From: Saprospiraceae bacterium
Lineage (GTDB): Bacteria > Bacteroidota > Bacteroidia > Chitinophagales > Saprospiraceae
Assembly: GCA_019187225.1 (NCBI GenBank)
Contig: JABAQQ010000041.1
Location: 62,001-126,000 of the forward strand
DNA: 64,000 nt
Direction of reading: 5' to 3'
Below the pieces are notes generated by a model. The model was not told where the DNA came from. It made no database searches and worked only from the letters and a program-made list of their open reading frames with translations. The translations under genes were made by a program, and so were the position numbers. Below, one piece after another: positions 9,386 through 61,946 of this stretch (within the stretch, counting starts at the first letter, position 1; each line of letters starts with the position of its first letter).

Positions 9386-10336
9386 ATGGACATCCTTCAC
9401 CCTCCCGCCCATTCCAGCTTCTTCCGCCGCGCCTGGATATACAGCCGCGAAATGTTTCCCCTGCACTTGTACCTGCCTTACGTATTGGCGCTCTATGCCT
9501 GCCTCAACTTTGCGAGCCAAGCCATCGCCGGTGGGCCGGTGGTGTTCGATATCTACGGTTTGACGGGCGTGATCTCGGCTTTCTGTATGATGCTGTTGTT
9601 GCGCACCTTCGACGAATTGAAAGACGTGGAGATTGACAAAGTGCTTTTCCCTGAGCGCGCGCTGCCGCGCGGCGACGTGAAGGTTTCGGACGTTCGCATC
9701 CTTTCCATCGCCAGTTTTTCGGTGTTGTTACTGGTCAACCTCTTGTTTGCCCCGCAAACATGGCTGCCCTTTTTTATCATGATCGTCTATGCCCTGCTGA
9801 CCTTCAAATGGTTTTTCGCAGAAAAAATCCACCGCGAGAACCTGTTCCTGACCATGCTGACGCATCAGCCGTTGCCGCTGTTCATCAACTATTACCTCAT
9901 CCACACTGCTCTGACATCCGGGGGAGCCAATTATTCCTTTACGTCGGATCATGTTATTCTGCTGTTGCTGTTCTCTTTGCCTGTGACGGCGTGGGAAGTG
10001 GCGCGCAAGATCCGGGGACTCGGCAAGGAGACTGACTACGTCACCTTTTCGCGTATTTTCGGCCCGCGTGGAGCGACGCTTATTCCTTTTATCTTCCTGA
10101 TGTTCAGCGGTGGTTTTTGCCTGTACACAGGCTGGAAACTCGGCTTGCACAGCCTGTTTTTCCTCGTCACTTCGGTACTTATGGCATTTGCGGCTTACTT
10201 CTTTACCCGCTTCATTTTGCAGCCGACCGAGCGGAACAATGTTTTGAAAAACACGGCCCTTGTGTTCACAACCCTGCTCTTTTTCAATATGCTGTTTCAC
10301 CTGCTGTGGAAATACGAGGTGCAATGGCAACTGTGA
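9386..10336 (+). CDS. UbiA-family membrane prenyltransferase
   Basis: 316 residues, eight to nine hydrophobic segments. The first Asp-rich prenyl-diphosphate/Mg site is visible as FDELKDVEIDK (Asp76, Asp80, Asp84) followed by PERALPRGDV. A second, more degenerate charged loop is AWEVARKIRGLGKETD (about 202-217). UbiA enzymes transfer prenyl chains to acceptors such as quinone rings or, in archaea, to geranylgeranylglyceryl phosphate. The company of HMG-CoA reductase, a CarS-like protein and a CDP-alcohol transferase favours a lipid acceptor, but the acceptor cannot be read from sequence. First gene of the block; its stop overlaps the next start. Confidence 0.85.
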   Translation: MDILHPPAHSSFFRRAWIYSREMFPLHLYLPYVLALYACLNFASQAIAGGPVVFDIYGLTGVISAFCMMLLLRTFDELKDVEIDKVLFPERALPRGDVKVSDVRILSIASFSVLLLVNLLFAPQTWLPFFIMIVYALLTFKWFFAEKIHRENLFLTMLTHQPLPLFINYYLIHTALTSGGANYSFTSDHVILLLLFSLPVTAWEVARKIRGLGKETDYVTFSRIFGPRGATLIPFIFLMFSGGFCLYTGWKLGLHSLFFLVTSVLMAFAAYFFTRFILQPTERNNVLKNTALVFTTLLFFNMLFHLLWKYEVQWQL

Positions 10337-12927
10337 TGCAATACGGCGGCAAGGCATCGAACCTTCTCAGGATGCAGGCGGCCGGTTTTCCGGTTCCGCC
10401 GTTTTTTGTGGTGCCCCGCGAAACGGTAGCAACGATGTTGGCGCCGCTTTCAGCCGATATCGAACGATTCTGTGCCGCCCTTCCCCGTTTCGATGACGCT
10501 CAACTCGCGCAAAAAGCCGGGGAAATACAACAAAAGATCAAGAGCCTTAACCTGCCCGCGTCTTTTCCCGAATCCATTGCGGCCGACTGCCGCCGGCTCT
10601 TTGGCGACCAATTTCGCGTGGCCGTCCGTTCTTCCGCCGCCGGAGAGGACGGCACGAAGACCTCCTTCGCCGGTCAACACGCTACCTTTTTGGGCGTTCG
10701 CGAGGCCGATCTGGTTGAAAAAATATTGGCTGTCGTCGCTTCCGCTTATAGCGCCAATGCGCTGAAATACAGGATATTGCGCCAACTGTCTGTCCGGGGA
10801 ATACAAATAGCAGTCATCGTCCAGCAAATGGTGGACGCAGCAAAATCAGGTGTCGGTTTTTCCATGAATCCGGGAGGTAATCTGGCCGATGCATTGATCG
10901 TTGCCGGGTACGGCATGGGGGAGGGCGTCGTCGGCAGCCGTGTAGAAACGGATACTTTCGTCGTACACCGTCCAACAGGGGCATTGGAAAGCCACATTAC
11001 ACCAAAGCAAACCGCGCTGGTATTTTCTCCAGGGCGAGGAGTGGTCGAAATGCCCGTCGCCGACGAGAAGCGCAACAGTCCGGTGTTGACGGAGGAGGAG
11101 GTCCGGCAGGTTTGGGACCGGACGTTGGCTGCCGAAACCCTGCTGGGCGTGCCTTCCGATATCGAGTTCTCTTTCGACCGGGAGGGCAAGTTGTTCATCC
11201 TACAGATGCGCCCTATCACTACGCTCGACCGGGAAAAGATCAAGATCCTTGACAACACGAACATCGTCGAAAGTTACCCGGGCTTGACCCTCCCACTTAG
11301 TTTCAGTTTTGCTGCGAAGGCGTACGAACGGGTATTCAGCAGCAGTTCGCGCGCATTTCTGGTTCCCCGATCTGCAATCCGCGGCTTTTCGGACGTTTTT
11401 CAAAACCTGCTGGCGCATTGCAAAGGCCGGGTGTATTACCGCTTAGACAACTGGTACCGGATGATGTCGCTGGTGTACGGGTCGCGGCGTTCGATGCAGG
11501 CCTGGGAAAAGGCTGTCGGCTTAGCGCAGGGCGAAAGCCATTCCATGCACTTTTCATTTTGGAAAAAAGTCCGGACAGTCCTGGCCTCAGTATGGCTTAT
11601 TTTAAATTACCGCCAGGGAAACAAGCGGTTTTTTGAGGAGTTTTATAAAAACTACGCCGTTTTGCGCGATTTCAGAAGCCATCTCTCCTCGCCGGAACAG
11701 CTCTGGCGGCACTACGAAAATGCGACCGGGCGGCTCTTCCGTCCCTGGCATCTGACGCTGGTGAACGATTTTCTGGCTTTCAAAGCGTTTGGCTGGCTGC
11801 AGGAACTGACAAAACAGTACGGCGACGATTACTCTGAAAGTCTGGCCAACGATCTGTTGTGCGGGCAGGGTGGTGTGGAATCGGAGGAAGCAATATTGTC
11901 GGTGTTGGAATTGAAGGAAGCGGTAAAAAACGACGCGGAATTGAGTGCACTTTTTCGTTTGCCCGCCGGCGACATCCTACCCCTGCTCGCCGGACCGAAA
12001 TACCGGATGTTTTACGAAAAGCTGCACCAGCACCTGGAAAAATACGGCGACCGCACGCTGGAAGAATTAAAACTGGAGGTCAAATCGCCGCGCAGCCACC
12101 CGGAAATTTTCATCGGATTGCTCAAAAATCAACTGCTTTCGACCGTAACTTCCCTTGATTTCAGGAGAAAGCAAGTGGAAATAAGGCAAAACGCTGAAAA
12201 TAAAATCGCCACATACCTGCGCTGGTGGCAAGCGCGAACCTGGTTGTTCCGGGCGGCACGTTCGCTCGCTGCCTACGGCCTGAAAAACCGGGAGAACATG
12301 CGTTTTTGCCGAACCCGGGCCTACAGCGCTGTAAAAGATATTTTCGCGGAAATCGGAAAAATGATGGCCGAAAAACAAGTGATTGCCCATCCGGAAGACG
12401 TATTCTGGCTCGAAATCGAAGACCTTCGGGCATTTTGTCCCGGCGAAGACCGCACATCCAAAATCCAAAAAATTGCCGCGCTGAAAGCCGCATTTGAAAC
12501 CTATCGCGACCTGCAATTGACCGACCGCATCATGTACATAGGTGACGAATTGCCTGGATTTGGCTCAAGAACGTGGAAAAAACAGCCCGGGGCCAAATAT
12601 TTCCAGGGCATTGCAGTATCGAAAGGCATCGTGACAGCACCGGCAGCAGTCATTACCGAGCCGCGCCTCGACGCCGACGTTCGGGGAAAGATCCTGGTCT
12701 CTAAAATGACCGATCCCGGCTGGATTTTCCTGATGGCACAAGCCGCCGGTCTGTTGAGCGAAAAAGGATCGCTGCTCTCGCACACTGCTATCGTGGGTCG
12801 GGAATTGGGCATTCCGGTGGTGGTGGGCGTGACGGAGGCGACAAGTATTTTCAAAAACGGAGATATGCTGCGTTTGGATGGAAACGCCGGGACAGTTGCT
12901 TGGGCAGCGCATGTTCAGGAAAGTTGA
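10336..12927 (+). CDS. Rifampin-phosphotransferase/PEP-synthase-like ATP-grasp and phosphohistidine protein
   Basis: 863 residues from the ATG at 10336, which overlaps the UbiA stop as TGATG (another ATG at 10324 is possible). N-terminal PPDK-type ATP-grasp: GGKASNLLRMQAAGFPVPPFFVV, then VAVRSSAAGEDGTKTSFAGQ and the metal/ATP segment PSDIEFSFDREGKLFILQMRPI. A long helical middle follows. The C-terminal swivelling His domain has SHTAIVGRELGIPVVVG with the phosphoryl-carrying His about 47 residues from the end. There is no PEP-binding TIM barrel, so it is not a PEP synthase. Length and order match rifampin phosphotransferases, which move the beta-phosphate of ATP to a small molecule. Translational coupling to UbiA suggests a lipid-related acceptor, which is inference. 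Confidence 0.8.
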   Translation: MQYGGKASNLLRMQAAGFPVPPFFVVPRETVATMLAPLSADIERFCAALPRFDDAQLAQKAGEIQQKIKSLNLPASFPESIAADCRRLFGDQFRVAVRSSAAGEDGTKTSFAGQHATFLGVREADLVEKILAVVASAYSANALKYRILRQLSVRGIQIAVIVQQMVDAAKSGVGFSMNPGGNLADALIVAGYGMGEGVVGSRVETDTFVVHRPTGALESHITPKQTALVFSPGRGVVEMPVADEKRNSPVLTEEEVRQVWDRTLAAETLLGVPSDIEFSFDREGKLFILQMRPITTLDREKIKILDNTNIVESYPGLTLPLSFSFAAKAYERVFSSSSRAFLVPRSAIRGFSDVFQNLLAHCKGRVYYRLDNWYRMMSLVYGSRRSMQAWEKAVGLAQGESHSMHFSFWKKVRTVLASVWLILNYRQGNKRFFEEFYKNYAVLRDFRSHLSSPEQLWRHYENATGRLFRPWHLTLVNDFLAFKAFGWLQELTKQYGDDYSESLANDLLCGQGGVESEEAILSVLELKEAVKNDAELSALFRLPAGDILPLLAGPKYRMFYEKLHQHLEKYGDRTLEELKLEVKSPRSHPEIFIGLLKNQLLSTVTSLDFRRKQVEIRQNAENKIATYLRWWQARTWLFRAARSLAAYGLKNRENMRFCRTRAYSAVKDIFAEIGKMMAEKQVIAHPEDVFWLEIEDLRAFCPGEDRTSKIQKIAALKAAFETYRDLQLTDRIMYIGDELPGFGSRTWKKQPGAKYFQGIAVSKGIVTAPAAVITEPRLDADVRGKILVSKMTDPGWIFLMAQAAGLLSEKGSLLSHTAIVGRELGIPVVVGVTEATSIFKNGDMLRLDGNAGTVAWAAHVQES

Positions 12928-12945
12928 ACATGCACGCCTAACAAT

Positions 12946-13025
12946 ATTTCCCGCAGATTTGTGCAGGTGGAGATCAAAATCTGCGACTATCTGCGCAAAT
13001 TTTTCTGCGTAAATCTGCGGGAAAT
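12946..13025. terminator. Inverted repeat between convergent genes, possible two-way terminator
   Basis: Perfect 15-bp arms (12946-12960 and 13011-13025, ATTTCCCGCAGATTT) enclose 50 nt filled with further ATCTGCG words in both orientations. It sits between the convergent stops at 12927 and 13049. It belongs to the short-word repeat class of this window. Confidence 0.6.
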
Positions 13026-13048
13026 GGCTCTATGCCCCTCCTGCAAGA

Positions 13049-13582
13049 TCACCCGCCTTCCCAGATCCGCGTTTCAGACCCCGGAACGACCACGACGTCG
13101 TATCCTGCACGTTTGGCCTGCGCCACCAGTTTTCTCCGGAGCATACCGGGATAAAAGGCATTAAAAAAATAGTGCCCACCCCGCATTTTATTGATCTTTT
13201 TCAACAGATCGTAACAGGATGAAGCGCAGCGCTGGCCGAAAAAGGAATAGTCATACGACGGCTCCAGGATGTTTTGGTGATAAAAATCCAGCAGAAATGT
13301 TTTTTCCGTTTCGGTGACGGGGATGGTAACAAGCGTTTCCTGCTTTCCTTTGTAGCGTTGTGCCCATTCGTCCGGCGTGAGTTGCTGGAAAATGCAGTTT
13401 TTCGCCTTCGGTTTGGAGATAATGTGTATCCGGTTTTTGTCGCGGTATTGAAAGTCATAAATAAAACCGTCCAACTGAATGCCGACATGGCCGCCTCCTT
13501 TACCGCCGAGTTCTTTCGGCTCGTGGCGATGCTGCCATCGGCGGATTGATCCATGTATAATGCGGACAATGATGTGTTGCAT
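13049..13582 (-). CDS. Probable permuted papain-fold (NlpC/P60-like) protein
   Basis: 177 residues, no signal peptide. The order His-then-Cys (GGHVGIQLDGFIYDF near residues 30-45, then FGQRCASSCYDLLKKI near 114-128) is that of circularly permuted papain-fold amidases or acyltransferases such as the YiiX/LRAT-like group. These cleave or transfer acyl/amide groups, often on lipids or peptidoglycan. The call rests on motif order only. It is divergent from the HMG-CoA reductase fusion gene with a 46-bp gap, so the two probably share a control region. Confidence 0.5.
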   Translation of the reverse strand: MQHIIVRIIHGSIRRWQHRHEPKELGGKGGGHVGIQLDGFIYDFQYRDKNRIHIISKPKAKNCIFQQLTPDEWAQRYKGKQETLVTIPVTETEKTFLLDFYHQNILEPSYDYSFFGQRCASSCYDLLKKINKMRGGHYFFNAFYPGMLRRKLVAQAKRAGYDVVVVPGSETRIWEGG

Positions 13583-13628
13583 CGGACGAGGAAGGAGGAC
13601 GGTTTAAAAGTCAAGCAAAGTAAACGAA

Positions 13629-15944
13629 ATGGAACCATATCCGATAGTACCCGGCAGGGGGCTGGCCACAAAAGACGCGATGGAGGTGCGTCTTGCTTAC
13701 CTTGATATTCTCGGCTACGACCTGGAGAACCTTTCGCAAACCAGTCTTCAACCGGAAGATATCCGGCACAACATCGAATCCAACATTGGTTCGGTGGAAA
13801 TCCCCCTTGGTCTCGCCGGGCCGCTGCTGTTCCGGCACGACGGGTCGCAGGAAATGGTGTTCGCCCCTGCCGGTACGCTCGAAGGCGCCTTGCTGGCGAG
13901 CATGAACCGTGGCGCAAAAGCCGTCAGCCTCAGCGGTGGGTTCGGCGCGGCGGTGCTGCACCAAAAAATGGTGCGCTGCCCAATGTTCATTTTCAGCAGC
14001 CCCGGCGAAAGCCTGCATTTTAAAACCTGGGTGGAAGAGCGCTTTTCGCAGATCAAAAACACAGCCGAACAACATTCCAATCACGCCAAACTCCAGAGTG
14101 TGCTGCCTGTCGTCACGGGCGAAAGCGTCCACCTGAAATTCACCTATACCACCGGCGATGCCGCCGGGCAGAACATGACCACGATCTGTACCTGGCATGC
14201 CATTCTCTGGATAAACGACGGATTTACAGCGGATACAGGAATCAAGCCGCGGCATTTTGTCATCGAAGGCAACGGCGCTTCCGACAAAAAGGTGTCCTTC
14301 TTTTCGATACAGAACGGCCGGGGTGTTCACGTCGCATCCGAATGCGAACTGCCGGAACGCGTCATCGAAAAAGTGCTGCGCACCAATTCCGATGACTTGC
14401 TGCTGTGCTACAACCACTCCATCAAAATAGCCCGGCTCGACGGCATGGTGGGTTACAACATCAACGTTGCCAATGCGGTAGCAGCCATTTTTGTCGCCAC
14501 AGGGCAGGACCTCGCCAGTATTCACGAATCGGGTGTGGGCATGCTCGCGCTGGAAAAAACGCAGACCGGATTGCACTTCAGCCTGCATTTGCCAAATCTG
14601 GTGATCGGGACGGTTGGCGGCGGCACGCACCTGCCCAGGCAACAAGAGGCGCTGGCACTGATGGGTTGCCGGGGAAAAGGGAAATTGCCGCGCCTGGCGC
14701 AGATCATCGCCGGCTTTGCGCTCGCGCTCGAAATTTCCACTTTCTCAGCCATCGTCGGCGGGCAATTTGCCAAAGCGCACGAAAAACTGGGGCGCAACAA
14801 ACCCGTTAAATGGCTCACGAAAAGCGAGATCAACCGCGATTTTGTTCAGTCGTTCCGGGGCGGAAGCCTTGAAGGACGGGAAGTCCTTTCGGTGCATTTT
14901 CCGGAAGGGCGCATCGTGGAAAACGGCGTCATCATCGGGCTGCAAAGCCGGGTGAATCAAAAATTGACGGGCTTTGTGCCGTTGGAAATGGAATGGAAAA
15001 ATTTGTCGCAGCCGGGCAAACCTGAAACAACGCGCGCACTGTTGAAGGTCAAGCCCTTAGACACGGAAGTGATGGAAGGGCTGCACCTCATGGCGGCCCA
15101 CATCGATCCTTCGCTCGCCGACTACCTTTATCAGTTCTGCGAGGTGCTGGAATACCGCGATTGCCATAAAAAGGAATTGGCGATCTATCAATTGTTGCGC
15201 GACAAAGGCCAGTGTTGCACCCCGGAATTGTTCGGCATCAAAACGGACGAAGCGCGGGAGATTTACATCGTGATGCAGGAATGGCTCGACTACGGGGAAA
15301 TGAGCGTCATTCATGCTGAAAACCAGCCCGAACGCTGGTCGAAGGAAAACATCAAATCGGCCATTCGTACGATCGCTGAAGTACATGATGCGTTGGCGGA
15401 TGCAGTTCCCCCCGGTATTCCGGTATTCGAACCCTGGAAAGCTGCGCCGCTGTATCAACAATTCGCCCGCATTCTTGAAAAAGAATACGCCGACGGGCCT
15501 TTGCATCCGCTCGTCTTGCGTCTTTTCGGTTTTATGGATGAACTGGAAGTTGAACACCAGAAGATTTCAGTCAAAAAAACGGTCATTCACAATGATTTCA
15601 ATACCCGGAACGTAGCAGTCCGGCAAAACGGTGACATCTGTATTTACGATTGGGAACTGGCGGTGCAGAATTTCGCGCAGCGCGATGTGGTGGAGTTTCT
15701 GAGTTTCGTGCTGCCGGAGCATTTCGATGTCCGCGACGCAGAGGAATTCCTGCGGTTCCATTTTTCGCTCCAGCAATCCTGCCCGGATTGGGCGGTGTGG
15801 AAACAAGCTGGTGTGTATGCACTCAAAGAATTCCTCGTGACGCGTGTTTCGTTTTATCTTACGGGGCGTATTTTGCTGGATTTTGAATTTGCCGAAAGGA
15901 TATTTCGCAATGCCTTCCGCTTGATTGATCTGCTGAAAAAATGA
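13629..15944 (+). CDS. Class I HMG-CoA reductase fused to APH/choline-kinase-like phosphotransferase
   Basis: 771 residues. Residues 1-400 are a class I (eukaryote/archaea-type) HMG-CoA reductase: AGTLEGALLAS (Glu85), TTGDAAGQNM, EGNGASDKK (Lys220), VANAVAAIFVATGQD (Asp294), IGTVGGGTHLP and AKAHEKLGRN (His384) give the complete catalytic set. It makes mevalonate from HMG-CoA with NADPH. Residues about 465-771 are an APH-fold kinase: LLKVKP strand Lys, KKELAIYQLL helix Glu, hinge IVMQEWLDYGEM, catalytic HNDFNTRN (His654, Asp656, Asn661) and metal-binding DWE (Asp674). No membrane anchor. I know of no standard HMG-CoA reductase with this partner; the kinase substrate is unknown. Its stop overlaps the next start (ATGA). 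Confidence 0.92.
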   Translation: MEPYPIVPGRGLATKDAMEVRLAYLDILGYDLENLSQTSLQPEDIRHNIESNIGSVEIPLGLAGPLLFRHDGSQEMVFAPAGTLEGALLASMNRGAKAVSLSGGFGAAVLHQKMVRCPMFIFSSPGESLHFKTWVEERFSQIKNTAEQHSNHAKLQSVLPVVTGESVHLKFTYTTGDAAGQNMTTICTWHAILWINDGFTADTGIKPRHFVIEGNGASDKKVSFFSIQNGRGVHVASECELPERVIEKVLRTNSDDLLLCYNHSIKIARLDGMVGYNINVANAVAAIFVATGQDLASIHESGVGMLALEKTQTGLHFSLHLPNLVIGTVGGGTHLPRQQEALALMGCRGKGKLPRLAQIIAGFALALEISTFSAIVGGQFAKAHEKLGRNKPVKWLTKSEINRDFVQSFRGGSLEGREVLSVHFPEGRIVENGVIIGLQSRVNQKLTGFVPLEMEWKNLSQPGKPETTRALLKVKPLDTEVMEGLHLMAAHIDPSLADYLYQFCEVLEYRDCHKKELAIYQLLRDKGQCCTPELFGIKTDEAREIYIVMQEWLDYGEMSVIHAENQPERWSKENIKSAIRTIAEVHDALADAVPPGIPVFEPWKAAPLYQQFARILEKEYADGPLHPLVLRLFGFMDELEVEHQKISVKKTVIHNDFNTRNVAVRQNGDICIYDWELAVQNFAQRDVVEFLSFVLPEHFDVRDAEEFLRFHFSLQQSCPDWAVWKQAGVYALKEFLVTRVSFYLTGRILLDFEFAERIFRNAFRLIDLLKK

Positions 15945-16447
15945 ATCACCACCTCGCTTTTATTCTCGTCCCGCTCATCCTGTCCAACGTGCTGCACATG
16001 TTCTGGGTGAAAAAAGATCTGACGCCCGGTTGGGCCGTTCCGGTATGGCCGAGTCTTTTCGGGGCGAACAAAACCTGGCGTGGGTTCGCGGTGTTGCCTT
16101 TACTGAACGGGCTTTTCAGCGCGGTTCTCAGTCCTTTATCCGGCATCGAGACTGGAAAGGGTTTTTGGATCGGCATTGCCCTCGGTTTGGCCTATATGCT
16201 CTCCGAATTACCCAATTCCTGGATAAAGCGGCGCGCCGGTATTGCGCCGGGCGGCAGCGCGGCATCCAAAGCCTGGTTTTTTGCCATTTTGGACAAAACC
16301 GATTCGAGTTTGGGCATAAGTTTGGCGTGTCATTTTATTTTCCAATTCAGCCTGTGGCAGACCGCGCAACTTTTTCTCATTGCGGTTTTTTGCCACGCCT
16401 TTTTTTCCTGGATTTTGTTGGTTTTGGGCGTAAAAAAGCATTTTTGA
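15941..16447 (+). CDS. CDP-archaeol synthase (CarS)-like integral membrane cytidylyltransferase
   Basis: 168 residues with about five membrane segments. Family marks: GANKTWRGF (residues 41-49, matching the GKTWRG motif of CarS), SELPNSWIKRRAGI (88-101, matching GDLxxSFIKRR) and ILDKTDSSLG (116-125, matching the DQLDFVLG acidic motif). CarS converts unsaturated archaetidic acid plus CTP into CDP-archaeol; the bacterial relative CdsA does the same for phosphatidate but is usually larger. Start overlaps the HMG-CoA reductase stop by 4 bp, so translation is coupled. Ends 3 bp from the convergent methyltransferase gene. Confidence 0.8.
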   Translation: MNHHLAFILVPLILSNVLHMFWVKKDLTPGWAVPVWPSLFGANKTWRGFAVLPLLNGLFSAVLSPLSGIETGKGFWIGIALGLAYMLSELPNSWIKRRAGIAPGGSAASKAWFFAILDKTDSSLGISLACHFIFQFSLWQTAQLFLIAVFCHAFFSWILLVLGVKKHF

Positions 16448-16449
16448 GG

Positions 16450-17019
16450 TCAAAAAATAAAAGGAATAAGCTTCCGGGTGCGCGAAGTGTAATCCTTGTA
16501 GGTTTCTCCAAAATGCGCGGTCAATACCGCTTCTTCCAGCCGGATACGGTGCAGCACCGCCACCAACGGGCACGTGACGAGCAAAACAAAGCACAACCAG
16601 TTTTGCATGGCAAGCCCCAAACCGAGGTAATACAGCATAAGCCCAGTGTAGGCCGGATGCCGGATGTATTTGTACATGCCGTTGGTTTTTAAGGTATGTT
16701 GCCTGAGAATGGCGATTTGCACGGTAAATGCCGGGCCCAGGCTCAATACCGCTGCCCATCGCAGTGCCAGCCCTGCAAAAACGAGCAACACGCCCGTATA
16801 TGCCCAAAATACAGGTAAATCAATGCGCCCCCAACCCCTGAAAAAGACCAAAACACTGAGCAACAGCGCCCCCGGTACGAGTAGCCGGAACAACAAAAGA
16901 CTGTTGCCATCCCGCACCAGCCCGATGCCGGAAGATTCGCCTTTTCTGGTCACGTTGATCCATATCCCCGAAAAAGCAATGATACAAACTAAAAATACAA
17001 TGAAAATACCGCTCAACAT
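16450..17019 (-). CDS. Isoprenylcysteine carboxyl methyltransferase (ICMT/PEMT)-like membrane protein
   Basis: 189 residues from the ATG at 17019 (a TTG two codons upstream is possible). Several membrane helices, then the ICMT core: LGPAFTVQIAILRQHTLKTNGMYKYIRHPAYTGLML and, after a helix, EEAVLTAHFGETYKDYTSRTRKLIPFIF. Such enzymes methylate prenylated or lipid head groups with SAM at the membrane. The neighbours suggest a prenyl or phospholipid substrate, but this is inference. Its first 20 bp overlap the first 20 bp of the divergent CDP-alcohol transferase gene. Confidence 0.82.
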   Translation of the reverse strand: MLSGIFIVFLVCIIAFSGIWINVTRKGESSGIGLVRDGNSLLLFRLLVPGALLLSVLVFFRGWGRIDLPVFWAYTGVLLVFAGLALRWAAVLSLGPAFTVQIAILRQHTLKTNGMYKYIRHPAYTGLMLYYLGLGLAMQNWLCFVLLVTCPLVAVLHRIRLEEAVLTAHFGETYKDYTSRTRKLIPFIF

Positions 17020-17560
17020 ACCCAACGTTTTGTCTTTGTACCGGTTAGCGTCGTTCCCTTTCGTGCTTTACTTAGCATGGACGGGTCAGGAACGGCTTTT
17101 CGTCTGGTTTCTCTGCATCAATTTAGTGACCGACATCCTCGACGGACTGATCGCCCGGGCTTTCAACATGATGACGGAGATCGGCGCAAAACTCGATTCT
17201 TTGGCCGATGTAGGCACTTATATCCTTGCCTTTCTGGGCATTTATTTGTTCAAAAGTGCAACGTTCAAGCCTCATGTGTTTTCCTTTTCCATTTTTATCG
17301 GGCTGTTCGTGTTGTGCAACCTGTTCTCCCTGCTCAAGTTCGGGCGTTTTCCCAGCCTTCATTTGTATTCCTGGAAAATCGGCGGATATATCCAGGGATT
17401 CTTTTTCTTCGTGTTGTTCGTGTTCGGTTTCAACACGCCCTTCTACTATTTTATGGTGACTTGGGGCATTCTGGCTTTTTTGGAACACCTCGTTATTCAA
17501 GTGATGATAAAGGAAATGAAATCAAATGCGAAAGGATTGTACTGGATTTTGCGGAAATAA
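17000..17560 (+). CDS. CDP-alcohol phosphatidyltransferase family protein
   Basis: 186 residues, integral membrane. The family signature D-x2-DG-x2-AR-x8-G-x3-D-x3-D is complete (Asp45, Asp48-Gly49, Ala52-Arg53, Gly62, Asp66, Asp70). NIPNVLSLYRL at the N-terminus fixes the start at 17000. The enzyme swaps CMP on a CDP-lipid for a polar head group such as glycerol phosphate, serine or inositol phosphate. With the CarS-like gene 500 bp away it could supply the head-group step of the same lipid, though an ordinary phospholipid substrate is also possible. It overlaps the start of the methyltransferase gene on the other strand. Confidence 0.9.
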   Translation: MKIPLNIPNVLSLYRLASFPFVLYLAWTGQERLFVWFLCINLVTDILDGLIARAFNMMTEIGAKLDSLADVGTYILAFLGIYLFKSATFKPHVFSFSIFIGLFVLCNLFSLLKFGRFPSLHLYSWKIGGYIQGFFFFVLFVFGFNTPFYYFMVTWGILAFLEHLVIQVMIKEMKSNAKGLYWILRK

Positions 17561-20388: not shown

Positions 20389-20547
20389 ATAAGAGCATGT
20401 TGGGGATTTTCTCATCGGGCCAAAAACGAGGGCTTCTTTCGCGTTTTTGAAGGAGCATAGCAGGATCTACGTGATTGAAAAAAGATGAAAAATGGCGGAA
20501 AAAGAACCGTTTTTGGCCCGATGAGAAAATCCCCAACATGCTCTTAT
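20389..20547. repeat. 40-bp perfect inverted repeat around a 79-bp core
   Basis: Arms 20389-20428 and 20508-20547 are exact reverse complements. Each arm contains the core GCATGTTGGGGATTTTCTC, which recurs downstream of the PBP1A gene. The right arm overlaps the last 4 bp of the DUF262 gene, including its stop codon. The size and symmetry would fit a small non-autonomous element or a very strong terminator; no transposase is present. Confidence 0.85.
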
Positions 20548-22253
20548 ATCTTCCAAACACCGCAAGCTGTTTTAGCAAGCCCTATCTGTCGGTGTTCGAT
20601 CATTTTAGTTGTCCATGTTTGATTGGTAATTTGTTTTGTAATAGCATATTTACTGGATTCATAAATTGCTTTTTTTTCTAAAAACGGCTTGGCAGCCGCT
20701 TCTTTATTGTTTTTTGTAGGTTCTAAAAGCGTCAGGTTACCTATCATAAAAAGGTATTTAGAGTGTTGTTCCTCAGTGAATTCTGTTCGCCAATCTTCGT
20801 TCAATGATTCCGGCAAAATATGCTCTATGGTACCTTCGTCGGTTTCAAAGTCAAATTTGGCGCCATCCGGTAATTGTGCGTTAAGTTTATATAGTATGTA
20901 ACGTACGATCTTTTTCTGCTGACTATTATTAGTATTGAACGAACGAAGTTCAAAATACTTCCTGAATTCATCATCCTGCAAATAAATATCCTGTAGTTCA
21001 GCAATGATATCTTTGGCTAATGTTAATCGTACACTAAATATATCTATTGCAACACGATTATATACCTCTTCCATCCTATTAGTTTGAAGTTTTCCAATAA
21101 CATTATAGCGAAATGACAAGTTTACAACAGCACGTAATACTTTCTTAAACTCTACTATAGGTAATTTTTCAAATGATGCCATAAGTAGTGGATAACATTG
21201 TGTTACATTGAATAGAGTCAGAGCATTTATTAATTCTTCAGTATCTTTATCTGTTTTCCAATAATCGTCATATGGATTGGATAATGCATTGTAAATATAA
21301 GCTTGAGATTCTAAATGGTCTAATAAATCTAATACATCGCTATCTTTTTTCACAATTTGCTTAACGGCTTTAAATAAATATTCTTTTGGGACAAGTTCAC
21401 GTCTTGAATTGAGGTAATGTCGCAGAAAAACGGGAAATTTTTTCAATCCGATTGCATCTACAATTTTCTTCCATTGAGTTTTAACCACTGCTAAATCACT
21501 TGGGCTTTTACTTACTAATGAAAACATAAAGTTTTTCAATAGATCAGTAGCAGTGAGATCAACGCCACGTGAATTTAACGTCTCAAATACTGTATAAGCG
21601 TTTAGTTCATCTTTAACTGTAATTTGAATAAAGCGCAAATTATCAGCAACAAAATGAGTCAGAAATTTAGTAATTTCTTCGCCTTTGGGATTTATCTTAA
21701 ACAGATCATCAAGACGATTCAAAAAGAAACGATAAGCATTCCAAAGTAATTTTTCCGAATCAGATAATTTTGATATGGATACTGGTTGTCTAAACTGGAT
21801 TAGGCGGGATTGATAAAAGCCATCGTTATTTTCATTCAAGAATAATTTACTGGAATAGGTAAGTGAGGCAGGATCCTTCTGTCCAATAAATTGACGGGTC
21901 AGAATCTCTACACGCTCTTGATTAGCTTCCGTCTCAATACCCTTTTCTGCTAAATCTTGGATTGTTTTTATTACGGCCAATGCTAATATGCTCAGCGTGG
22001 AGAATCGTTGCTGGCCGTCAATGATCTGAAATTGCCGCTCTGACTCTCCTATAGATTGCAACACGATAGAGCCCATATAATGTGGTTCATCATGCCGGAA
22101 GGAATACAACAAGTCATTCCACAAATCCTCCCAGTTGTCTTCTTCCCAAGAATAGTCACGTTGAAAAAGCGGCACCCGGTAAATTTTACCATTTCCCAGA
22201 ATATCATTCAAACTGACTGTTTTTGTATCCAACAAGTTAGTAGATGCTGCCAT
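20544..22253 (-). CDS. DUF262/DUF1524 protein (GmrSD-like single-chain nuclease)
   Basis: 569 residues from the ATG at 22253 (MAASTNLLDTK); upstream ATGs at 22262 and 22295 are possible. N-terminal DUF262: YRVPLFQRDYSWEEDNWEDLW and IIDGQQRFSTLSIL, the ParB/Srx-like nucleotide-binding DGQQR motif. C-terminal DUF1524 HNH-like: GTIEHILPESLNEDWR... and IGNLTLLEPTKN. GmrSD enzymes cut DNA with modified cytosines as type IV restriction against phages. It is markedly more AT-rich than neighbours, which suggests acquisition by transfer. No other defence gene adjoins it. Confidence 0.88.
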   Translation of the reverse strand: MAASTNLLDTKTVSLNDILGNGKIYRVPLFQRDYSWEEDNWEDLWNDLLYSFRHDEPHYMGSIVLQSIGESERQFQIIDGQQRFSTLSILALAVIKTIQDLAEKGIETEANQERVEILTRQFIGQKDPASLTYSSKLFLNENNDGFYQSRLIQFRQPVSISKLSDSEKLLWNAYRFFLNRLDDLFKINPKGEEITKFLTHFVADNLRFIQITVKDELNAYTVFETLNSRGVDLTATDLLKNFMFSLVSKSPSDLAVVKTQWKKIVDAIGLKKFPVFLRHYLNSRRELVPKEYLFKAVKQIVKKDSDVLDLLDHLESQAYIYNALSNPYDDYWKTDKDTEELINALTLFNVTQCYPLLMASFEKLPIVEFKKVLRAVVNLSFRYNVIGKLQTNRMEEVYNRVAIDIFSVRLTLAKDIIAELQDIYLQDDEFRKYFELRSFNTNNSQQKKIVRYILYKLNAQLPDGAKFDFETDEGTIEHILPESLNEDWRTEFTEEQHSKYLFMIGNLTLLEPTKNNKEAAAKPFLEKKAIYESSKYAITKQITNQTWTTKMIEHRQIGLAKTACGVWKI

Positions 22254-22320
22254 TGTATACATTTTGCGTTTGCTTTGCAAATGTACACTTTTCAATAAAT
22301 TAGGCTGTTGCGATTTGGGA

Positions 22321-58859: not shown

Positions 58860-61800
58860 ATGTCTGATCCGCTTTCGCTTCATATTTTTCTTTCCTGCGA
58901 CCAAAAAGACGTCGCCACCGCGCAGGACCTGCAGCGTCAACTGAAACTTGCGTTCGACCCGGTACAGTACAAGCTCGTTTTCTGGAGCAGGGAAGACGTG
59001 CCGCCGGAGGAATACCGCGCAAAGGCCAAAGCCTTTCTCGAAAAGACCCATTTGTTCGTCGCGGTGCTGTCAATGAACTATGAGGACACGCCCGATGTGC
59101 GCTGGGAAGCCGCCACTGCCGTTGAAATTCAGCGCAACCGCCCGGCATTGCAGATACTGACCGTGCTGGCGCGCAACGTCGCTGTGCCGGCGCTGCTGGC
59201 GAATTTTCAAACGGCGCTCCCTCCCGGAGAAACCATTGAAAGTCATGGACTTGCGCGTGATCGCCAACTGCTTCGCGCCGCAGAGAGCGCCAAAAGCGTG
59301 CTGGCCGCCACTCCGCGCTCCAACGAAATGCCGGAGGCTAAAATTGAGCTTCCGCTGGCCGTTCAGGACATCCGCGAACGCCTGCTTGCCCAAACCGACC
59401 GGATCAACCACGCGCCGCTGCTGACATTGCTCAAACATATTATCGAAAATGTAAAAACCAAACGCGTGGTGCTGGATGTGGAGGAAAAGTTCAAACTGTT
59501 GCGCGAACAAACGCGGCTTTCACAAATTTCCGCCTCCGAACTGGCCGAAAAAGCGCGGCCGATAGAAATTGAATTGCAACATCTGATCAGTGACTTGCCG
59601 GAAGCCGATCTGGTCAGGAACTGGAAGCAGGTATTCATTCGCGATTATTTCCATTTTACCGACGGCAGCCGCTCTGCTGCCACGGTGCCGCCGTTTTTTG
59701 TTCCCGCCGACGAAATTGCCATCCCTGAAACGCTCAACCTCCCGGTCGGCCCGCGTGGACAAGAGGCTATGGAGCAGATCGGCCTTTTATCGTTTGAGCA
59801 AAAAAACGATTTCCGCCGCAGCCTGCTGCTGGCGAAAGACGCCCTGGCCGTCAAAAATTACACCCAGGCCTACGCGCACTGCGACCATGTGCGCACAAAA
59901 ATTGACCCGCAGTCGGCTCAACTGTATGAATACCTGCTGATCACGTTCATGCAAAAGGAAACACCGGGCCGCATTCTGCAGGAAGCGGCGAAAGGCAACG
60001 ACCGGATGCTGCAATACGTGTTGCTCTATGCCGAGCGATACCGAAAGTACCAAAACGACGGCAAATGCCCCTCATCCACCGGCCTGCACAACCTCGCCAT
60101 TGCCTCCGAAAGCCTTTCCGACGCGGCCCTGAAAATATACCACCATATGCCCAACGATTCGGTGCGGCACACGGGCAAACACGCCGAATCGGTTCCGGAC
60201 AATCGCCGCCTGATGCGCATCATTCTGGATAACACCCTGAAGATATGCCGTTTGGTGTATCCGTCGGAAGAATTGCTGGAAGCAGCGGTCGTTGAAAGTT
60301 GCGGCGGCGGCAAATGTCATTGGCTGAAACGGGTGGACGTCATCGGCAACCATTTTCAGTTCATCCCCGACGGTCATTTCGACCTGCTGGGAGAGATACA
60401 GGAATTGCTCGACCTGTTGCAGGGCATGGAGGCCGAGCAGCCGGGCAAAATCGTGAAGCAAGGCGATCTGCTGCGGGAAGACCTGTATTTCAGCCTCGTT
60501 GCCAAACGCCAGGCCTTGCAACAACAGATTGCAGAAGATGTCCGCCGCCGCCGCCCGTTTACCGACCAGCGTGCCTCGATCATCCGGTTTGTGCAAAGCT
60601 GTCTTTTGGGGGCTGAAATGTTTACCGATCACGACCAGGATGGGAGGGGGCAATCGTTTTATCGCATGGCGCTCGAATACCTGCTGCCCGGATTGCTCGT
60701 ATCGCCCGACCCAGCCGCCAATTTGCCGTTGCGCTGGTTCGACCTGGACGAAAACGGCGAGGTGCGCGCCCATCCGGATTGCGCGGCTTACGAATTCGAC
60801 GTCCGCGCCATTGTGCAAAAAATTGTCCACGACCTTGCCGGTCGCGCGGGTTGGTTGCAGGTGCAGCCGAACATCAAGGAAAGCGTTTATCTCGATTTCG
60901 CAGCTGATGTAGAGGCCGATTACGAAGAGGTGAAAAAGGGGTTGCAATGGACGGATTTCCGGCGCATCAAGGACGAAGATGCCCGGCGGCAGGTGATCTC
61001 CTGTCTCCGCCGCTGGGTCATTGCATGGCGCGCCTATCCGGAACGCGGGCGTGTTTTTCTGGAAAATTGCCATCGCGAACTGTCGGGCGATGGACTTCTC
61101 TTGTGGTTTCGGCACGACCCTGATCAACTCGCTACCCATCCTCAAACCCTTGCATTGGGTTATAACGCCCAGGCGGAGTTAAAGATGATCCACGAAGCGT
61201 TGCTCGCCATGAATGTGCCGGACACTTCGGCATCGTCTGAAGACCCGGAATCGGCGCTGAGAAAAACCATCGCCGATAACTTATTCAACAAGAGTATTTT
61301 ACCAGTTTATGAGAAACTGAAGGCAGGTGACGAACAACAGCGCCCACTGGCAGCCCGCCTCTTGCGCGAAGCCCTGAGCAACTACCGGCTCCACCCCGAT
61401 ACCCGTTACCTCGATCTGGTGTGGCGGGAACTCACGGAAGAGCTGAAATTCTGCTGGATTGATATCACGAAGGACGGCAAAGAAAAAACCTTTGTCTCCG
61501 TCGCCGGCTTCGATCCGGTGGCGGTCCTCCATCGGCTGAACGAAAATCATCCTCAATTTTATTCTATGCTGGTCGCCCGCGAACGCATTGCCGACCGCCG
61601 CTTAGCCAACCAGGTAGAGCGTTATTTTCGCGAGATCAGCGAATTCCGCCACGAAAATCGTCGCCCGGAACGCGAACTCGCCATTGATATTTTGCTCAAT
61701 ATCAAAGGCATATACCGCTATTTTCCCAAACAGGAATACCTCGAACTGCCCCTGCGCGAGCTGACCGGCAAGGGGCGCATTCGCTGGAATGCTTTGCTGC

Positions 61801-61946
61801 TCGGCATTTTCCCGCTCACCGAAAATCACTACGAAAACCGATTCTACGGTTTTGAATACAAATGGGAACGATCGGAGATCCGGCGTTTACTGGACGATCA
61901 ATTCACCGAAATGCAGCGGGTGTTGCGCGAAACGGGCGCCCTGTAG
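58860..61946 (+). CDS. TIR-domain protein with large uncharacterised C-terminal region
   Basis: 1028 residues. Residues 5-130 resemble a TIR_2-type fold: LHIFLSCDQKDVATAQDLQRQL, FWSREDVPPEEYRAKAKAFLEKTHLFVAVLSMNYEDTPDVRWEAATAVEI (possible catalytic Glu83 or Glu89) and LPPGETI. Residues 130-1028 are mainly helical without recognised domain: no NACHT/P-loop, no TPR signature, though parts (about 310-400) are TPR-like in spacing. TIR domains in bacteria often cleave NAD as a defence or signalling effector; sensing would fall to the unknown region. Single gene, heptamer repeats directly after the stop. Confidence 0.6.
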   Translation: MSDPLSLHIFLSCDQKDVATAQDLQRQLKLAFDPVQYKLVFWSREDVPPEEYRAKAKAFLEKTHLFVAVLSMNYEDTPDVRWEAATAVEIQRNRPALQILTVLARNVAVPALLANFQTALPPGETIESHGLARDRQLLRAAESAKSVLAATPRSNEMPEAKIELPLAVQDIRERLLAQTDRINHAPLLTLLKHIIENVKTKRVVLDVEEKFKLLREQTRLSQISASELAEKARPIEIELQHLISDLPEADLVRNWKQVFIRDYFHFTDGSRSAATVPPFFVPADEIAIPETLNLPVGPRGQEAMEQIGLLSFEQKNDFRRSLLLAKDALAVKNYTQAYAHCDHVRTKIDPQSAQLYEYLLITFMQKETPGRILQEAAKGNDRMLQYVLLYAERYRKYQNDGKCPSSTGLHNLAIASESLSDAALKIYHHMPNDSVRHTGKHAESVPDNRRLMRIILDNTLKICRLVYPSEELLEAAVVESCGGGKCHWLKRVDVIGNHFQFIPDGHFDLLGEIQELLDLLQGMEAEQPGKIVKQGDLLREDLYFSLVAKRQALQQQIAEDVRRRRPFTDQRASIIRFVQSCLLGAEMFTDHDQDGRGQSFYRMALEYLLPGLLVSPDPAANLPLRWFDLDENGEVRAHPDCAAYEFDVRAIVQKIVHDLAGRAGWLQVQPNIKESVYLDFAADVEADYEEVKKGLQWTDFRRIKDEDARRQVISCLRRWVIAWRAYPERGRVFLENCHRELSGDGLLLWFRHDPDQLATHPQTLALGYNAQAELKMIHEALLAMNVPDTSASSEDPESALRKTIADNLFNKSILPVYEKLKAGDEQQRPLAARLLREALSNYRLHPDTRYLDLVWRELTEELKFCWIDITKDGKEKTFVSVAGFDPVAVLHRLNENHPQFYSMLVARERIADRRLANQVERYFREISEFRHENRRPERELAIDILLNIKGIYRYFPKQEYLELPLRELTGKGRIRWNALLLGIFPLTENHYENRFYGFEYKWERSEIRRLLDDQFTEMQRVLRETGAL

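Follow-up and report, generated by a model that had tools for sequence, protein, structure and literature searches.

A gene that joins an HMG-CoA-reductase-like (HMGR) domain to an APH-fold kinase domain lies at the heart of a gene block in a Saprospiraceae genome, and this HMGR-kinase fusion is the main point missed by an earlier, sequence-only reading of the same DNA. We propose, at somewhat less than even confidence, that the block directs the synthesis of a polar (phospho)lipid other than an archaeal ether lipid, proceeding by reduction of a CoA thioester, phosphorylation, activation with CTP and transfer of a head group. The order of the genes, namely reductase, kinase, CTP-using enzyme and CDP-alcohol transferase, would reflect consecutive steps. 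The block lies in the window, by which we mean the whole 64,000-nucleotide stretch of DNA analysed, and consists of the following genes.

9386..10336, plus strand: UbiA-superfamily membrane transferase, best NCBIfam match PRK13592
10336..12927, plus strand: protein with PPDK_N and PEP-utiliser mobile domains (dikinase of the PEP-synthase/RPH type), start uncertain (10306-10336)
13049..13582, minus strand: 177-aa protein between the PPDK-like gene and the fusion, with relatives adjoining the block in loci L157 and L046
13629..15944, plus strand: fusion gene, HMGR-like domain at about 13629-14800 and APH-fold kinase domain at about 14823-15941
15941..16447, plus strand: CarS-like membrane protein of the CTP-transferase family, its start overlapping the fusion stop (ATGA)
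16450..17025, minus strand: ICMT/PEMT-type membrane methyltransferase, start ATG 17019 or TTG 17025
16979..17560, plus strand: CDP-alcohol phosphatidyltransferase, start 16979 or 17000, motif DG..AR........G...D...D

The gene block and its distribution

The genes listed by the sequence-only reading (UbiA, RPH-like, class I HMGR-type domain, CarS-like, ICMT-type and CDP-alcohol transferase) are all present and in place, and both of the stop-start overlaps it described can be read in the letters. TGATG links UbiA (stop 10334-10336) to the PPDK-like gene (ATG at 10336, with 10306, 10324 and 10333 as other possible starts), and ATGA links the HMGR gene (stop 15942-15944) to CarS (start 15941). The HMGR gene product of 771 aa matches PF00368 with 334 bits over residues 19-389 and PF01636 with 48.8 bits over residues 514-721. 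The 177-aa minus-strand gene was likewise overlooked, and its product has no family match at E 0.01 in a Pfam and NCBIfam scan. Relatives of the ICMT-type gene are found in L027, L046, L048 and L157. The CDP-alcohol transferase matches PF01066 with 67.8 bits (cut-off 22), resembles ClsA, archaetidylinositol-phosphate synthase and PgsA weakly, and carries DG..AR.{8}G...D...D, read by eye, which we take to be the CDP-alcohol phosphatidyltransferase motif. Elsewhere in the window, a GmrSD-type restriction protein with PF03235 and PF07510 is encoded at 20544-22295 on the minus strand (PADLOC HEC-06, 687 bits); the gene sits in a local G+C dip of 0.380 against about 0.52 and was likely acquired. 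At 58860-61946 on the plus strand lies a gene for a protein of 1028 aa that has a TIR domain (PF13676, 32.3 bits) at its N terminus.

A scan for close relatives of the fusion, with one genome per species, gave 24 further loci, hosted by Kordia, Winogradskyella, Bizionia, Psychroserpens, Saprospiraceae, Chitinophagaceae, other Bacteroidota and one Bdellovibrionales. The fusion reaches the contig end in L037, L044 and L047, and the DNA downstream can be read in the other 21. A CarS-like gene, 35-51% identical to that of the window, directly follows the fusion in 17 of the 21, and such recurrence of the order argues that the pairing is not due to chance; the gene is missing there in the other four (L028, L029, L033, L049). 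A CDP-alcohol transferase lies within about 1.2 kb in 12 of the 24 fusion loci, a PPDK-like gene belongs to the same locus in eight, and a window-type UbiA in two. Both the frequent CarS neighbor and the CDP-alcohol transferase favor the polar-lipid pathway. Two extra loci reached via CarS, L157 and L158, are consistent with the set, and L157 is complete, with fusion, CarS, CDP-alcohol transferase, ICMT, 177-aa gene, PPDK-like gene and UbiA. A class draw of 295 genomes gave strong CarS-like matches (E <= 1.2e-26) in six, the window's own genome among them, the remaining 4 of 10 matches being weak. In a phylum draw, the CarS profile matched strongly in only one of 395 genomes, the window's own (231 bits); the other 34 matches reached at most 31.5 bits, and no other genome of its family or order in this draw matched. 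The gene set is conserved, but rare and patchy, occurring in Bacteroidota, one Bdellovibrionales and one Streptomyces plasmid.

The surroundings of the fusion are not uniform. In L030, L040, L050 and L158, the fusion and CarS are accompanied by a divergent PPDK-like gene, then by methyltransferase and desaturase relatives, with an acyltransferase also present in L030, L040 and L050 (the L050 copies were those run through Pfam). A short UbiA-like gene is found in L030, L050 and L158, and a Pfam scan of those of L030 and L050 gave no recognition. The methyltransferase and desaturase genes that run with the set count in favor of the polar-lipid pathway. A second type of surroundings is seen in L029, L033 and L044, where P-loop kinases and an NTP_transf_5-type gene (Pfam on the L029 and L044 copies) lie some kb from the fusion in the first two and directly before it in the third; L029 and L044 also have a PPDK-like gene. 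On a plasmid of Streptomyces sp. NBC_01435, a fusion matching at 35.5% over 99% is preceded by GH3 and followed by a thymidylate-kinase-like protein, with NRPS-type genes around, and no CarS match was obtained in the plasmid collection. The kinase directly after it (L159, 17327-18121) is a P-loop kinase similar in type to those of L029 and L044.

Taken with the four loci in which CarS is missing, these contexts indicate that the fusion product is not always used with CarS, which weighs against the polar-lipid pathway. They raise another explanation, namely that the fusion supplies a small soluble metabolite, such as a natural-product building block, and that the adjoining lipid genes of Bacteroidota represent a separate step or shared mobility. 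The Streptomyces copy amid NRPS and GH3 genes would fit this, as would the sporadic distribution, the two P-loop kinases with the NTP_transf_5-type gene in L044 (where the contig ends inside the fusion and CarS cannot be judged), and the same set in L029 and L033, with no CarS after the fusion. However, the overlap or tight spacing of fusion and CarS is kept across very divergent hosts, including a Bdellovibrionales, and we consider a soluble product rather improbable.

The polar-lipid pathway draws further support from a plasmid of Roseinatronobacter sp. S2, which carries an unfused reductase with E684 together with a UbiA, a PEP/pyruvate-binding (PPDK-like) protein and a DUF3419 gene, presumably of the betaine-lipid type. 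The further genes of this set encode a 440-aa membrane protein, a 282-aa protein and an AMP-binding enzyme. The 440-aa protein has no Pfam match, and we read it from its motifs as presumably polyprenol-kinase-like.

The fused reductase and kinase, and the supply of isoprenoids

Residues were mapped in human HMGR numbering for 25 fusions, being the 24 loci and the window, with no motif-based selection. E559, R590, D690, K691, K692, N755, D767 and H866 are retained in all 25, and among them are Glu559, Lys691, Asp767 and His866, which we take to be the catalytic residues of class I HMG-CoA reductase. S684 is replaced by Glu in 24 fusions and by Asp in one, and is therefore acidic in every copy; H752 is Asn in 25 of 25; K735 is lost in 24 and kept in one; M655 has become Ser or Ala, and M657 Gln, in all. 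Excerpts of PMC9500038 name Ser684 and Lys735 as HMG-site residues. Measured against class I HMGR, the 25 fusions have the catalytic residues and depart at the HMG-site Ser684 and Lys735. The window fusion scores 268.3 bits with NCBIfam TIGR00533, short of the cut-off of 441.8. It shares the domain family and all catalytic residues with the class I enzymes (TIGR00533; human 1dq8, Methanothermococcus 6hr7), but differs from them at S684, K735 and His752, in that DAMGMN reads DA[AS]GQN, and in the attached kinase.

Since the catalytic residues are kept and the acyl-site residues changed, the chemistry appears to be preserved, unlike the acyl site. By the aligned residues, the HMG-carboxylate pocket is altered in the fusions, and this suggests that the acyl substrate is something other than HMG, probably one without a free carboxylate. 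The retention of catalytic residues in 25 of 25, beside the changes at S684, H752 and K735, is among the points in favor of the polar-lipid pathway. Against it, D684 and the loss of K735 are also present in Vibrio-type class I HMGRs (three of the three read), so the fusion is not alone in having such changes. A tree that took in 26 fusions, but neither L028 nor L049, sets the fusions, together with the Streptomyces copy, apart from all other HMGRs with support 0.944.

Four of the six stand-alone HMGRs from plasmid records were read, L163 and L165 being left out. The stand-alone class I HMGRs of Vibrio and Photobacterium (L160, L161, L162) have D684, DASGQN and Met735 and keep H752; the genes adjoining that of V. 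fluvialis are for molybdate transport. An HMGR-like gene on a Sinorhizobium medicae plasmid (L164, 6001-7065) has Lys590, Thr684, Arg692 and Ala735, lies among genes for acyl-CoA carboxylase subunits, indolepyruvate oxidoreductase and MmgE/PrpD, and is perhaps another repurposed HMGR. Eight rows of class II-like stand-alone HMGRs, from genomes that carry the fusion, aligned unreliably and were excluded from the residue table.

The C-terminal domain appears, from its motifs and predicted fold, to be an alcohol kinase of the homoserine/choline-kinase fold. H.D.N.RN and YDWE are found in 23 of the 25 fusions, the pieces used for L047 (contig end) and L048 (assembly split) being without that stretch. 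We take the catalytic loop H.D....N with a metal-binding D to be the APH-type kinase motif. The predicted model of the domain has a pLDDT of 89.6 and a pTM of 0.90, and its nearest folds by Foldseek are YtaA, choline kinases, homoserine kinase 2ppq (TM 0.56/0.66), LicA, spectinomycin kinase APH(9) and N-acetylhexosamine kinase. That alcohol kinases are the nearest folds to a model of this quality favors the polar-lipid pathway, but the TM-scores are modest (0.41-0.56 by query length), which counts against it. A sequence-only PDB search with the domain gave short and weak matches, mostly to protein kinases. In its motifs and fold, the domain thus resembles the small-alcohol kinases of the APH family (choline kinase, homoserine kinase 2ppq, YtaA), but it sits behind a reductase and the TM-scores to them are only about 0.4-0.6.

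The presence of an HMG-CoA reductase gene is commonly taken as a sign of the mevalonate pathway. A second explanation is that mevalonate continues to be the product of the reductase and is phosphorylated by the fused kinase to the 5- or 3-phosphate, the mevalonate phosphate then feeding isoprenoids or serving as head group or backbone of a lipid. All catalytic residues, together with R590, K692 and N755, are kept; the kinase fold resembles that of homoserine kinase, whose substrate homoserine also ends in HO-CH2-CH2-; and the fusion of a reductase to a kinase suggests consecutive steps. Opposed to this are the loss of K735 in 24 of 25 and the acidic residue 684 in 25 of 25, at positions given an HMG-site role in the excerpts of PMC9500038, and the pathway content of the host genomes.

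HMGR and GHMP kinases were searched for in 20 genomes and dxr in 24. A dxr match was found in nine of the 24, one of them a fragment, and the fusion is the sole HMGR match in eight of these nine. More than one HMGR match was found in 11 genomes, 10 of them without a dxr match, and among the 20 genomes searched, 10 of the 11 dxr-negative ones carry another HMGR match, which is again unfavorable to mevalonate as the product. Six genomes (G298, G304, G305, G306, G308, G312) have dxr and the fusion as only HMGR match. All six are metagenome-assembled by title, so that absence in one proves little, but the six together count. G302 was dropped from this set for a second HMGR, G307 for a diphosphomevalonate-decarboxylase-like gene in the bin (163.6 bits, cut-off 171.35) and G310 for a dxr match that is a fragment at a contig end; G295, with IspE and one HMGR match and no dxr match, was not counted. 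In L181 (56-3052), from the flavobacterial bin G307, a DGGGPS-like UbiA (168 bits with PRK12872.1-3, below cut-off) lies near the decarboxylase-like gene.

The six MEP genomes gave 15 GHMP matches. Over cut-off are six IspE, four homoserine kinases and one galactokinase; two more best fit the heptose-phosphate kinase HddA below cut-off, one is weak only and one is without family. None of the 15 reaches the mevalonate-kinase cut-off of 163 bits, in a search that covered mevalonate-pathway variants of the GHMP type. With the fusion as only HMGR match and no GHMP kinase over that cut-off in six MEP-pathway genomes, its product probably does not feed isoprenoids. The same six genomes support the polar-lipid pathway, and we regard mevalonate as an unlikely product of the fusion. 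PF08540 was uninformative as a marker of HMG-CoA synthase: it matched in 3 of 24 genomes and gave nothing in Kordia jejudonensis (G299), a genome with a stand-alone HMGR and with two adjacent GHMP matches.

The window's own genome has no dxr match, and carries a second HMGR (TIGR00532, 278 bits, cut-off 260) beside a gene read as a candidate type 2 IPP isomerase, as well as a mevalonate-kinase-like gene elsewhere (69.7 bits, cut-off 163). The fusion there is therefore an extra copy. The claim that the HMGR of the block is the mevalonate step of an archaeal-type lipid finds no support here, as its HMG pocket is changed and the separate TIGR00532 enzyme is present in the genome.

CarS, UbiA and the archaeal-type lipid question

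The CarS-like protein of the window scores 18.3 bits with PF01864, below the gathering cut-off of 22. PF01864 matches all 17 members of the alignment (the window and 16 relatives) at E <= 0.1, with a best E of 4.5e-9, against 7 of 17 for PF01148 (best 2.2e-4), and a PDB search gave a single match at E <= 1, to CDP-archaeol synthase 5guf. By this profile comparison, the protein is nearer to CarS than to CdsA, as had been proposed. It has the family, size and KR.LGI..G stretch in common with archaeal CarS (PF01864, 5guf), but falls below the Pfam cut-off and is distant from the solved enzyme (profile E 0.007), and no G1PDH was found in its genome by PF13685. Together with the CDP-alcohol transferase, it suggests lipid chemistry.

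The window UbiA had been put forward as a DGGGP synthase, and this identification was rejected by its NCBIfam scores and by the UbiA tree. It scores 130 bits with PRK13592 (cut-off 443), whereas the two DGGGPS-named models listed give it only 25.5 and 20.8 bits (cut-offs 296 and 353). A better candidate, the most DGGGPS-like UbiA of the genome, is on contig C9; it scores 82-158 bits with three DGGGPS-named models, all below cut-off, including 158 bits with PRK12872.1-1 (cut-off 278), and 182 bits with PRK12872.1-3, also below cut-off. In a tree of sequences from the genomes examined here, with L172 left out, the window UbiA groups with UbiA proteins linked to PPDK and with the short UbiA-like proteins found in L030 and L050 (support 0.989). 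The remaining five UbiA proteins of its genome fall outside this group, and that of C9 is in a different clade. A fold model (pLDDT 72, 3 sequences) resembles UbiA enzymes generally (TM about 0.5-0.6), its nearest solved structure by E-value being a weak match, DGGGPS 7bpu.

A PPDK-like gene adjoins UbiA in all 12 places matched by the UbiA profile, which come from 10 genomes and include two pieces of a single gene; this holds even where the fusion lies on another contig. In G295 the pair is preceded, at a distance of about 1 kb, by a CDP-alcohol transferase. Judged by these comparisons, the window UbiA belongs to a family other than DGGGPS, paired with a PEP-synthase-like gene. Relatives above 300 bits are found in 8 of 26 fusion genomes, each adjoining a PPDK-like gene, and relatives at 74-77 bits in G296 and G298. 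UbiA as an essential partner of the fusion was rejected on this count, and its lack in 18 of 26 genomes also tells against the polar-lipid pathway as we describe it.

GGGPS and geranylgeranyl reductase are, as the sequence-only reading stated, absent from the window; a GGGPS and a gene of the GG-reductase family lie outside it in the same genome, on C4 and C35. The genome-wide check proposed for the missing genes thus succeeded for GGGPS (C4:23820-24488, 132.9 bits, nearest solved relative 4jej) and for a GG-reductase-family gene (C35, 162 bits, cut-off 158.8), and not for G1PDH. The one PF13685 match in this draft genome (completeness listed 100) was rejected as a G1PDH candidate, being AroB (331.9 bits, cut-off 305). 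GGGPS was found in 22 of 24 fusion genomes, a count made among fusion genomes only; of the 24 searched, G298 and G313, which have fusion and CarS, gave no match.

These results bear on a third explanation, in which the block serves an archaeal-type pathway to isoprenoid ether lipids, UbiA being the DGGGPS and CarS and the CDP-alcohol transferase acting downstream. It can call upon the CarS-family membership, the GGGPS, DGGGPS-like UbiA and GGR-family gene elsewhere in the genome, the GGGPS of 22 of 24 fusion genomes, and the weak structural match of UbiA to 7bpu. It has to contend with the poor scores of the window UbiA as DGGGPS beside a better candidate, the lack of a G1PDH match with PF13685, the changed HMGR pocket, fusion and CarS with no GGGPS match in G298 and G313, and the absence of UbiA relatives above 300 bits from 18 of 26 fusion genomes. 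We hold this explanation to be quite improbable, and the archaeal-lipid reading of this block to be mostly wrong. The organism may still make an isoprenoid glycerol lipid through the unlinked GGGPS, GGR-family and DGGGPS-like genes, but this part of the earlier suggestion finds no support in the window block.

Excerpts of PMC7852524 describe Bacteroidetes GGGPS homologues with in vitro activity, and archaeal-type lipid genes in the FCB group in which GGGPS and DGGGPS homologues are present and G1PDH is missing, as in the window's genome. In the same excerpts, CarS is not detected in Cloacimonetes MAGs. The window differs from those FCB MAGs in that CarS is present, the adjoining UbiA does not resemble DGGGPS, and the block includes an HMGR-kinase fusion.

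The proposed pathway and its meaning

The polar-lipid pathway would begin with the reduction of a CoA thioester to a primary alcohol by the HMGR-like domain, whose catalytic residues are in place; the acyl substrate we infer. The fused APH-type kinase, identified by motif and fold, would act on the reductase product and phosphorylate the new HO-CH2-CH2- end. The CarS-like protein, as its family suggests, may then use CTP to turn a lipid phosphate into a CDP-lipid, and the CDP-alcohol transferase, recognized by family and motif, would join the CDP-lipid and the alcohol phosphate. In a subset of genomes, including that of the window, the UbiA/PPDK-like pair, the ICMT-type methyltransferase and the 177-aa protein may further modify the product. 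By analogy, the alcohol phosphate is somewhat favored as head group over lipid backbone. Glycerol 3-phosphate is the head-group substrate of PgsA.

The open-access literature, to which the search was largely confined, holds no description found by us of this fusion or gene set, and most subscription literature was outside its scope. The portion of PMC12419801 consulted concerns a different neighborhood, HMGR with a GHMP kinase. The HMGR-kinase fusion is apparently undescribed, and it is testable. A broader proposal, which we offer as speculative and doubtful in full, is an undescribed class of bacterial phospholipid. Its head group or backbone would be a diol phosphate, made from a non-HMG CoA thioester by an HMGR-derived reductase and a homoserine/choline-kinase-type kinase and activated by a bacterial CarS relative, and an HMGR lineage would have been drawn from isoprenoid metabolism into this role and transferred among Bacteroidota, Bdellovibrionota and Actinomycetota.

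The HMGR lineage considered here is fused to a kinase, has a rebuilt carboxylate site, is the only HMGR match in six MEP genomes, and adjoins a CDP-lipid gene in most loci. If our reading holds, it can be misleading to annotate HMGR and CarS genes of bacteria as genes for isoprenoids or archaeal-type lipids, and the new lipid could be sought in cultured strains such as Kordia jejudonensis.
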